DNA of 26,528 bases from a virus. The stretch covers positions 1-26,528 of IMG/VR virus record IMGVR_UViG_3300017781_000104; one strand, 5' to 3'. Positions 2,507 through 18,210 of the stretch are shown in pieces. The notes beneath the pieces were generated by a model, which ran no database searches, had not been told where the DNA came from, and worked only from the letters and a program-made list of their open reading frames with translations. Position 1 is the first letter of the stretch; every line of letters starts with the position of its first letter. A program made the translations under genes and the position numbers.

Positions 2507-2765
2507 TGAGGCCATGCGCGAGGATGGTCACTTGCAAGATGAACGACCAGACGACCTATGCTCAGAGATGTTCAAGGCTCTGGCAGAGGTTACAGACTCA
2601 GACAGCTTCTATGCTGGCGAAGGCTACAATGAGGCTTACTATGGTGACAATCTGGACATCATAGTCACAGATTCAGACTATCAGGCCGCCAGTGAGATAT
2701 GTGGCTACCACCCAATGCACATCAAGGAGATTATGTTGGAGTGGTTAGTCGAGGGTAAGGTATGA
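2478..2765 (+). CDS. Hypothetical early protein, 95 aa, acidic
   Basis: No family is recognised. A strongly acidic protein rich in Asp, Glu and Tyr (for example Y-N-E-A-Y-Y-G-D-N). The composition resembles small phage proteins that mimic DNA or bind host enzymes, but no specific match is claimed. The start at 2478 lies inside the previous gene. The stop overlaps the methyltransferase ATG by four bases, so this gene and the methyltransferase are probably translated together. Confidence 0.65.
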   Translation: MSDFQNMTISEAMREDGHLQDERPDDLCSEMFKALAEVTDSDSFYAGEGYNEAYYGDNLDIIVTDSDYQAASEICGYHPMHIKEIMLEWLVEGKV

Positions 2766-3625
2766 AAGTATTAGATTTATTTTCAGGCATAGGAGGATTT
2801 AGCATTGGCCTTGAAAAAGCAGGATTTGAAACAGTCGCATTTTGCGAAATCGAAGATTACCCAAGAGCAGTGCTTAGAAGACACTGGCCTGACATCCCAA
2901 TCTACAGAGATGTTAAGCAGCTCACAGGAGAGCAACTTCGAGCAGATGGAATTATTCCAGACGTTATCGTCGGAGGATACCCCTGCCAGCCATTTAGTCT
3001 TGCTGGGGTCAGACGAGGCGAGGAAGATGACCGCCACCTCTGGCCAGAAGTGCGCCGCCTTGTTAAAGAAATCAGACCCGCTTGGTGCATTTTCGAGAAT
3101 GTTGCTGGACACATCACAATGGGTCTCGACAAGGTGTTATCTGACTTGGAAGCCGAAGATTACTCCACAAGGACGTTTATTATTCCAGCTGCAGGTGTCG
3201 ATGCCCCGCACAGACGAGACAGAGTTTGGATTGTGGCGAACACCAGACACCAGCCAAGGCGAGACAGTATCTCAGGAAGCGTTAGAGGAAATGGCGCAGG
3301 GCAATATGCAGAGAGAAAGCGGTCAAATGAGGCAGCTGAGATTGCAAGACCAAGTGAGACACCAAAAACTTTGGCCGACACCAACAGCAAGCGACCACAA
3401 GGGGAGTGGGCAAAACGACACGATGTGGAGTCGTTTGGATTATGCAGTGGAGAAACCCCAAGGCAAGCGAATTTCTGGCCAACTGAACCCGACGTGGGTC
3501 GAGTGGCTGATGGGGTTTCCAACAGGTCACACAGAATTAAAGCATTGGGTAATGCGGTCGTCCCGCAAATCCCAGAAATCATCGGACGAATGATTAAGAT
3601 ATACCAGAAAAGTATTGACACCTAA
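2762..3625 (+). CDS. C5 cytosine DNA methyltransferase, 287 aa
   Basis: Transfers a methyl group from S-adenosylmethionine to carbon 5 of cytosine in DNA. The family motifs are present in order: I (D-L-F-S-G-I-G-G, residues 5-12), IV (P-C-Q-P-F-S with catalytic C75), VI (E-N-V, 112-114), VIII (R-R-D-R-V-W-I-V, 151-158), and IX/X (V-G-R-V-A-D-G through G-N-A-V-V-P-Q, 245-269). The stretch between VIII and IX (about 160-240), which should read the target sequence, is short, polar and low in hydrophobic residues. That is also where a second reading frame in the same strand is most conserved-looking. Probable roles are protection from host restriction or marking of replicated DNA. No partner restriction enzyme is adjacent. 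Confidence 0.95.
   Translation: MKVLDLFSGIGGFSIGLEKAGFETVAFCEIEDYPRAVLRRHWPDIPIYRDVKQLTGEQLRADGIIPDVIVGGYPCQPFSLAGVRRGEEDDRHLWPEVRRLVKEIRPAWCIFENVAGHITMGLDKVLSDLEAEDYSTRTFIIPAAGVDAPHRRDRVWIVANTRHQPRRDSISGSVRGNGAGQYAERKRSNEAAEIARPSETPKTLADTNSKRPQGEWAKRHDVESFGLCSGETPRQANFWPTEPDVGRVADGVSNRSHRIKALGNAVVPQIPEIIGRMIKIYQKSIDT
2946..3593 (+). CDS. Nested overlapping gene inside the methyltransferase, 215 aa
   Basis: A second frame, entirely inside the methyltransferase gene, is open from at least 2805 to 3593. The ATG at 2946 is the best start, with AGGAGAG at 2926-2932, though the spacing is long; ATG 2910 and TTG 2805 are alternatives. The product has S-M-P-R-T (85-89), G-L-W-R-T-P (95-100), L-W-P-T-P-T-A-S-D (142-150) and G-Q-L-N-P-T-W-V-E-W-L-M-G-F-P (178-192). 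From memory, such W-P-T-P and L-N-P-x-W-V-E-W-L-M-G proteins are common in phage genomes as hypothetical or methyltransferase-associated proteins. The molecular function is unknown. It could assist target recognition or regulate the methyltransferase. It could also be a by-product of conserved methyltransferase codons. I rate it more likely real than not. Confidence 0.6.
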   Translation: MELFQTLSSEDTPASHLVLLGSDEARKMTATSGQKCAALLKKSDPLGAFSRMLLDTSQWVSTRCYLTWKPKITPQGRLLFQLQVSMPRTDETEFGLWRTPDTSQGETVSQEALEEMAQGNMQRESGQMRQLRLQDQVRHQKLWPTPTASDHKGSGQNDTMWSRLDYAVEKPQGKRISGQLNPTWVEWLMGFPTGHTELKHWVMRSSRKSQKSSDE

Positions 3626-16435: not shown

Positions 16436-16741
16436 CTAGCCTATAACTACATAGCCAACAACTAAATCGTGACCATGATTTTGATGACCTGCAACAAAAC
16501 TACCATTTGCACGACTTGATACGAATGGATGTATATGTGAAATATCATTACCTAAACCCGTAAAAAGTATAATGCTATTTGCACCGACACGTTTGTCTGT
16601 AACATTGGTGGTAGTTGTACTAGCTGAAGCTGTAAAACTACCCGTGCTGTTTAACTTGCCTTCAACACAGTTATTTACCACCTCTGATATTTCACGAGGA
16701 GAGCCGCCTTGATATGGTAGCTTTCTATACTGATTGCTCAT
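16436..16741 (-). CDS. Conserved phage structural protein, 101 aa
   Basis: The pattern T-G-S-F-T-A-S-A-S-T-T-T-T-N-V-T-D followed by R-V-G-A-N-S-I-I-L-F and a closing beta-rich segment ending Y-V-V-I-G is one I recall from many phage tail regions as a small beta-sandwich-like protein of unknown role. It probably decorates or extends the tail or fibre attachment. Four bases overlap the stop of the tail-hub gene. It is followed by the only sizeable non-coding gap of the late operon. Confidence 0.65.
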   Translation of the reverse strand: MSNQYRKLPYQGGSPREISEVVNNCVEGKLNSTGSFTASASTTTTNVTDKRVGANSIILFTGLGNDISHIHPFVSSRANGSFVAGHQNHGHDLVVGYVVIG

Positions 16742-18210
16742 CTGCGCCCCAATGGTGTAGCGTCAACATCTATACCCTGCGCCCTACTCCAATCACCAGA
16801 AAGGTTTACTCTAACCTTATGATACCGACCATTAGAACGAACAGGTATAAAGTTATCAGCATTTAAACTAGAGCTAGAGCCAAATGATGATGAATCTACC
16901 TGCCGAGTGCGCGAAGCAATCTGAGCCGTAACTGTTCCAGTCGAGTCAGAGCCAGTTGTAACGTAGGGGATAATATTTCGTACAAGGCTAACACTGCCCT
17001 TCTTAACTTCAAACTCGCCCGTTTCAATAATCGCCGCAAGCGTGTCGCCTGTGAATGTCTGGATTTTTTTATCTTTCGCGGCTGCAAAAATAAACTGACC
17101 CCCAATAAAACTAGGGCTATCAAGTGAAGCAGGTAAAGCATCCAAAGAACTGTTAATATTATCAAGTCCTTCAAGAGTATAAGTAGCAGAGTAAAGAGGC
17201 GATAAAGCCGTAACATTGGCTTCTGCCGTAGACCATCTATCCAAGACATAATTATAGATAATGAGTTTGTCTGCACTTCCGTCAGAAGAGTTTGTGCTTG
17301 GATAAGACCAGATAATAATTTGGTTTTTAGGGTCTGCACTTGCAGAAACATTTTGAGGATACGCTGAATTAAAGTCATTATAAAAAAACCTATCTACTTT
17401 CTCTGCCCCGATACCTTTTGATGTTTGACCATTAAACATATAAAAACCATCGTCAGAAAGGTAAAATACAAAGTGACCAACATTTGCCACTGAACCTGGA
17501 ACTTTACACCCTCTTCTTGTTTCAACATTATCAAACTGAAAGACTAATGGTGAGCCTATATAAGAAGCACGAACAATTCCCTTTTCCATAAGTATAGTCG
17601 CATACTCACCGCCAACAAGACCTGTTATAGAACCCATGTCCATAATGTCTTGAAAATCAGCTTGTGTTGTAGCACTTACCGCCCAGCTTGTTGCATCACC
17701 AATACCAGACCATCTTGCCCTATATGGCTTTACACCATCAGATGAATCGCTTGTAAAGGCGGTCATAACAAAGTCACGCACAACAGCTATATATTTAGCC
17801 TTTGGTGCATCAGCACTTAAATCAGAAAACAAGCCAGCAGCAGAAGCAGTAATCTTTTGTATTGGGTCAGTAAAGTTAGTAGCAACAACAGTTTCACCAA
17901 ACTGCACAAAATTTGTTACGTCTGTTGAGGCTGTAGTGTAATTACCAGACTTACTTACATTTGTGAGTGCCTTAGTTGACGGAACATATTTATATAGTTT
18001 TGCTCTGTCTGCAACGTATATTGTGTCTGTTCCATCATCATTAGATGCAGCAAACATACCAACAATATCACCATCAGCAGCATCACTAATTGATGCCAAA
18101 TCATTAAACGGAGAGTAACCATCTAAAGATGGGATGACGTTATTTGCAGAAGTAACACCAGAATTATTAAAATCTGATTGGTCAGGTAAAAACTCGCCAA
18201 ATCTAATCAT
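16738..18210 (-). CDS. Tail hub / packaged-DNA stabilisation protein, P22 gp10-like, 490 aa
   Basis: In P22, gp10 closes the portal after packaging and joins it to the needle and tailspikes. Supporting features: the start F-G-E-F-L-P-D-Q-S-D-F-N-N, the central W-S-G-I-G-D-A-T-S-W, the stretch G-G-E-Y-A-T-I-L-M-E-K-G-I, and F-Y-L-S-D-D-G-F-Y-M-F-N-G-Q followed by V-D-R-F-F-Y-N-D. These belong to the beta-propeller-like hub seen in many podoviruses. The length is close to P22 gp10 (about 470). It follows the adaptor genes in the order expected for a short-tailed phage. Confidence 0.7.
   Translation of the reverse strand: MIRFGEFLPDQSDFNNSGVTSANNVIPSLDGYSPFNDLASISDAADGDIVGMFAASNDDGTDTIYVADRAKLYKYVPSTKALTNVSKSGNYTTASTDVTNFVQFGETVVATNFTDPIQKITASAAGLFSDLSADAPKAKYIAVVRDFVMTAFTSDSSDGVKPYRARWSGIGDATSWAVSATTQADFQDIMDMGSITGLVGGEYATILMEKGIVRASYIGSPLVFQFDNVETRRGCKVPGSVANVGHFVFYLSDDGFYMFNGQTSKGIGAEKVDRFFYNDFNSAYPQNVSASADPKNQIIIWSYPSTNSSDGSADKLIIYNYVLDRWSTAEANVTALSPLYSATYTLEGLDNINSSLDALPASLDSPSFIGGQFIFAAAKDKKIQTFTGDTLAAIIETGEFEVKKGSVSLVRNIIPYVTTGSDSTGTVTAQIASRTRQVDSSSFGSSSSLNADNFIPVRSNGRYHKVRVNLSGDWSRAQGIDVDATPLGRR

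Follow-up and report, generated by a model that had tools for sequence, protein, structure and literature searches.

A probable two-subunit C5 cytosine methyltransferase encoded in two frames of the same phage DNA

The small chain of M.EcoHK31I (176 aa) is encoded in another frame inside the gene of the large chain (309 aa). As described in PMC3404938, M.EcoHK31I is a heterodimeric C5 methyltransferase of specificity YGGCCR with motifs I–VIII and X in one chain and motif IX in the other, its predicted target-recognition domain (TRD) is placed in the large subunit, and the title of Lee, Kam and Shaw (1995) states that two proteins are required for in vitro methylation. M.AquI (heterodimeric C5, CYCGRG) is described in the same source as a large half with motifs I–VIII and a small half with the distal variable region and motifs IX–X (PMC3404938). 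Totally overlapping C5 methyltransferase products were reported for the Streptococcus thermophilus 5093-group phages, with a pneumococcal phage and Tn5252 also cited (PMC5601072). As far as these descriptions go, the overlapping-frame, split C5 methyltransferase is a known but little-noticed kind, with the division of motifs in M.EcoHK31I and the overlapping frames of the streptococcal phages as examples. Here, we report a methyltransferase gene with a conserved second protein nested in its +1 frame. It was found in the window, i.e., the whole stretch of viral DNA analyzed (26,528 nucleotides, IMG/VR record IMGVR_UViG_3300017781_000104). A search of mainly open-access literature found no description of the breadth of this family, of the placement of the recognition domain in the +1 frame, or of the series of nested, split, and fused forms.

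The features of the locus are collected in Table 1. The original prediction of a long open +1 frame (2805–3593) on the same strand within the methyltransferase gene was confirmed from the ORF coordinates: no stop interrupts the frame between 2793 and its end at 3593, with 2805 being the first start codon, and each of the motif pairs named there was located on shared bases. The match to the PHROG 1008 profile covers residues 35–245 of the ORF 2805–3593. The conserved nested protein begins near the ATG at 2946, as relatives have a start codon there or close by in the alignment. The open stretch 2793–2945 is not conserved as coding, and 2805–2945 is placed outside the conserved nested protein because many relatives have stops upstream of 2946.

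Table 1. Features of the methyltransferase locus (positions in the window)
Feature	Position	Strand	Remarks
C5 cytosine methyltransferase, frame 0, 287 aa, motifs I–VIII and X	2762–3625	+	PF00145 1.2e-41; phrog_363 1.4e-79
Nested second protein, +1 frame, 215 aa, PHROG 1008	2946–3593	+	phrog_1008 9.9e-34; starts in relatives; selection tests
AGGAG, candidate ribosome-binding site of the +1 frame	2926–2930	+	15 nt before ATG 2946, spacing longer than usual
PCQ of motif IV with catalytic cysteine, frame 0	2981–2989	+	P74-C75-Q76 invariant in 78-sequence alignment
N-terminal part of nested protein: two predicted helices (residues 23–39, 45–59) and confident beta hairpin (65–85, CYLTWKPKITPQGRLLFQLQV)	3012–3200	+	AlphaFold2
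WPTPxA-type modules of nested protein (LWRTP..., LWPTPTASDHKG)	3231–3404	+	Number of modules differs among relatives
Frame-0 stretch between VIII and X, residues 178–262, predicted disordered	3293–3547	+	pLDDT <50 throughout
LNPTWVEWLMGFP, motif IX-like element, +1 frame; frame 0 of the same bases is PDVGRVADGVSN	3483–3521	+	
Motif X (GNAVVP), frame 0	3548–3565	+	G263, N264, P268 invariant; flanking helix pLDDT >90

The core motifs of a C5 methyltransferase, I, IV (PCQ), VI (ENV), VIII (RxR), and X (GN), are all present in frame 0. A profile of 78 frame-0 proteins matched M.HhaI over residues 12–178 and, weakly, over 294–318, and residues 179–293 of M.HhaI (recognition domain and motif IX) are without counterpart in this match. 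In the AlphaFold2 model, the core and the helix of motif X are modeled with confidence, and Foldseek aligns it to M.HhaI over about 165 residues. The intervening residues 178–262 are modeled at low pLDDT (Table 1) and have no PDB match in a profile search, so that neither a recognition domain nor motif IX was recognized between VIII and X in the frame-0 chain. As modeled, frame 0 is without a predicted folded recognition domain.

The nested protein itself gave nothing significant in Pfam or NCBIfam, nothing in a PDB sequence search, and no fold match for its AlphaFold2 model, which as a whole is of low confidence (pLDDT 64); the hairpin blocks reach about 77–94, the rest being lower. W184–G190 of its motif IX-like element are invariant in 102 sequences, and the match of this element to canonical motif IX is positional only (hhalign E 0.16). 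Homology comes from actinophages. Three of their proteins whose deposited records read DNA methylase or methyltransferase, namely Schuy gp5, GigiOuiOui gp66, and Lilbooboo gp33, match PHROG 1008 (6.6e-60, 1.6e-77, and 2.5e-33, respectively) and carry, in one frame, PTP modules, an NPxFxEWMMGWPxGW-like motif, and then motif X; their partner ORFs stop after motif VIII or earlier. A single chain holds I–VIII, IX, and X in OldBen gp68, Gudmit gp58, and Rabbitrun gp78, and the PTP-type modules are clear in the first two of these. Profile comparison of the nested family yielded 5.8e-12 against the actinophage halves and 5.3e-10 against the single chains, and both matches fall in the C-terminal rather than the N-terminal part of the nested protein. 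Modules similar to the WPTPxA type are also found in the actinophage C-terminal halves and the single-chain enzymes. In the actinophage-type set, I–VIII without X lie in one frame and recognition, IX, and X in the +1 frame at 68 of 91 loci, and another 20 of the 91 are single chains. A locus from a Bacillota genome (L127) is intermediate: the nested protein continues into motif X, and frame 0 ends after VIII. Judged by these alignments, homologues of the nested protein occur both as a separate C-terminal half and as part of a fused single chain. In two bacterial loci (Clostridia, Oscillospiraceae MAGs; L128:2176-3162 and L136:2411-3256), LNPxWVEWLMG or motif X is in a frame switched relative to I–VIII, and modules are duplicated too; these may be natural frame exchanges or decaying copies.

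The second protein had originally been taken as a separate protein with no function assigned, a view that is not supported here. Because its homologues form the C-terminal half of C5 methyltransferases in actinophages, the nested protein is likely the recognition/motif IX subunit of the same enzyme. The idea that the recognition region doubles as the core of the nested protein stands as far as the shared bases are concerned, but the recognition domain is not in both frames. We consider it very probable that the locus encodes a heterodimeric C5 methyltransferase with frame 0 as the catalytic subunit and the +1 frame as the recognition/motif IX subunit. Frame 0 would contribute the Rossmann core with motifs I–VIII, a flexible linker, and motif X; an independent translation start around 2946 in the +1 frame would give the second subunit, composed of target-recognition modules and the motif IX-like LNPxWVEWLMGFPxGW. 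If the two chains assemble, the result would be a single enzyme methylating the DNA of the phage itself, and such methylation may serve self-protection against host restriction; the physical association, joint activity, and self-protection role of the two chains we infer.

Compared by the described motif layout only, the pair is like M.EcoHK31I, with I–VIII and X in the frame-0 chain and motif IX in the small chain, and at the window locus the small chain is likewise encoded in another frame within the gene of the large chain. Please note that motif IX is assigned here via the actinophage chains, its canonical match being weak. The E. coli hits looked at in the search for M.EcoHK31I were enzymes of P2-like prophages. 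Selection and modeling put the TRD in the small chain here, unlike M.EcoHK31I, for which the source places it in the large subunit. M.EcoHK31I also belongs to a restriction-modification system, whereas the present gene belongs to a phage, in a region that also encodes endonuclease VII and an Erf-like annealing protein, and no restriction enzyme was recognized among the few neighboring genes checked. The naturally split M.AquI, by its described halves, resembles the actinophage two-frame forms but not the window form, as it is split within the variable region and has motif X in the small subunit; we know of no nested gene of comparable extent in M.AquI. As in the 5093-group phages, the pneumococcal phage, and Tn5252, two methyltransferase-labeled products come from one DNA in different frames; in the streptococcal type (phrog_16143 by profile search), however, frame 0 keeps the recognition domain, IX, and X, and the second ORF lies mostly over IV–VIII. 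In the actinophage "DNA methylase" genes (Schuy gp6/gp5, GigiOuiOui gp65/66, Lilbooboo gp32/33, OldBen gp68), the second unit is also PHROG 1008 with PTP modules and an NPxFxEWMMGWP-like motif, but X goes with the second unit and the overlap is partial, or a single chain holds all the parts. In Paenibacillus larvae phages, e.g., Shelly gp55/gp56, the nested gene is already annotated as "g55 internal gene" and deposited as a hypothetical protein with no function given.

With the nested protein as query, 160 relatives were fetched from IMG/VR and GTDB genomes, all with the second protein in the +1 register inside a methyltransferase. The nested frame is in +1 within a frame-0 methyltransferase at 84/84 viral/phage loci and 80/80 genome loci. 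Because this sample had been picked by the nested protein, a second fetch was done with a diverged methyltransferase, Bas74, as the sole query; all 80 of its 80 loci carry the nested frame in +1. The shared dual-coding gene pair is supported by the overlap register among homologues, which is fixed at +1. The family comprises at least 594 IMG/VR stretches and 342 in GTDB representatives. Standalone nested copies without a methyltransferase frame were not seen among the fetched loci. The original prediction had listed the absence of copies outside methyltransferase genes as a point against dual coding; the absence holds in the fetched loci, but it does not weaken dual coding itself, since it is to be expected of a subunit. 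Phages commonly have overprinted genes, and the nested protein might instead be an independent overprinted gene, e.g., a regulator or an anti-restriction protein, that is not part of the enzyme; its long N-terminal part over motifs IV–VIII, shown in no single-chain enzyme, and the lack of a fold match would fit such a gene. We find this unlikely, as the nested frame never occurs without the methyltransferase frame in the fetched loci, frame 0 is without a recognition domain (predicted disorder and the M.HhaI gap), and the homologues of the C-terminal part contain motif X or form one chain with I–VIII.

Codon-level expectations were obtained from shuffles in which the frame-0 amino acids and codon usage were held fixed and synonymous codons were permuted. 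In 71% and 84% of the loci of relatives, an SD-like 4-mer stands before an in-frame start, versus 25% and 33% in the synonymous shuffles; the nested start of the window itself has no SD-like site within −17 to −5. Programmed ribosomal frameshifting into +1 would produce one long chain rather than two subunits, and the fused single chains are in line with it, as is the fact that one +1 shift would suffice to turn the two-frame forms of actinophages into one chain. In the window, however, motif X is back in frame 0 and a single shift would lose it; moreover, the +1 frame is conserved over IV–VIII, a long way ahead of the recognition region and of any point where a shift would be of use, and starts with SD-like sites are enriched, which is why separate initiation is favored and frameshifting seems very improbable.

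The original prediction put the chance of such an open frame at about 3 in a million, which is too strong: when the window gene alone is shuffled, there is a mean of 3.0 +1 stops per 215 codons, and zero stops occur about 2% of the time. The open frame of this one gene was dropped as proof by itself, and the evidence comes from relatives. In 85 sequences, 40 +1 stops were observed versus 326 expected, and many of these 40 are probably the natural end stop. For the 72 viral loci with recognizable motifs, there is 1 +1 stop versus 115 expected over motifs IV–VIII and 5 versus 87 over the TRD and motif IX, and the similarity of the +1 translation to the nested protein of the window exceeds that of all synonymous shuffles in 71–72 of the 72. 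The canonical dcm enzymes, our control for both the shuffle and the codon-position tests, have 849 +1 stops versus 821 expected over TRD/IX and show neither stop avoidance nor similarity to the nested protein. Frequent stops in the second frame, named at the outset as evidence against dual coding, are not a property of this family, in which +1 stops are rare.

Which frame is constrained where was evaluated from differences at methyltransferase codon positions 1/2/3 in 63 pairs of relatives over alignable columns. Upstream of the nested start, the differences are 0.14/0.07/0.48, i.e., position 3 leads. In the TRD, they are 0.45/0.18/0.16, so that position 1, the wobble position of the +1 frame, leads, and amino-acid identity is 0.78 in +1 versus 0.49 in frame 0; please note that the restriction of the TRD to alignable columns favors conserved stretches, and unfiltered, both frames look diverged. 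The motif IX stretch gives 0.21/0.07/0.06, and position 3 regains the lead (0.43) once motif X is reached. The Bas74 set repeats the flip in IX and is mixed in the TRD (0.28/0.22/0.23), whereas canonical dcm enzymes show no flip, with position 3 leading in TRD and IX. Synonymous shuffling and codon-position divergence show that both frames are under selection; over the TRD and motif IX, constraint moves to the +1 frame while frame 0 drifts. The constraint in the overlap that had been proposed as a check is visible, and a lack of any reduction, which would have counted against the pair, did not appear. Over motifs IV–VIII, position-3 change is reduced, but equally so in canonical dcm, apparently because the dcm group has its own +1 ORF, and we dropped this reduction as proof of dual coding. 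Some +1 motifs sit on conserved frame-0 motifs (IV, VIII, PDVGRVADGV), and part of the similarity is shadow, but a spurious +1 frame that merely mirrors methyltransferase conservation is rejected by the similarity beyond all shuffles in 71–72/72 loci, the +1 wobble pattern of the TRD and IX, and the dcm control (849 versus 821), and it has next to no probability.

In canonical dcm genes from phages, streptococcal ones among them (L269–L348), the +1 ORF is stop-free over motifs IV–VIII, with 0 stops versus 196 expected from shuffles of sequences that are related to one another; examples are L305:2164-2664, L321:2134-2643, and L324:2152-2574. These ORFs match phrog_16143 and often have an AAGGAG ahead of an ATG, and the recognition domain, IX, and X remain in frame 0.

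Returning to the heterodimer, it is fairly probable that, in a large family of phage and prophage methyltransferases, the catalytic core and the target-recognition subunit share the same bases in such a way that the +1 specificity modules evolve while frame 0 is only a linker there, and that lineages have repeatedly changed from one to another of the nested, split, and fused forms. A fully nested same-strand pair that recurs in phages and in many bacterial phyla is rare as a case of dual coding, and it is well replicated; both products would serve one enzyme. The two-subunit reading would explain a large family labeled "hypothetical" or "DNA methyltransferase". Many deposited annotations contain the frame-0 gene only, and half of the enzyme would be missed; as the nested half is omitted, attempts to predict specificity from the annotated gene, or to express it in another host, may fail. 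The exchange among nested, split, and fused forms offers a route to study the origin and resolution of overlapping genes.

Several minor observations were made on the way. The Roseovarius assembly OX638333.1 has five near-identical nested methyltransferase loci (L108, L109, L110, L112, L113) in a stretch of about 0.24 Mb that spans the chromosome start. The dcm gene of an archaeal plasmid of Methanomethylovorans hollandica (L182:2014-2805) has a +1 match to the C-terminal part of the nested protein. In two E. coli P2-like prophages (L185:2363-3397 and L186:2314-3228), RefSeq shows one "DNA cytosine methyltransferase" gene each; the enzymes are related to a nested-bearing Citrobacter gene, and the nested frame, if present there, is unannotated. 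Elsewhere in the window, a 160-codon ORF with an ATG start (16896–17378, minus strand) lies in another frame inside a virion protein gene (16738–18210) on the same strand.
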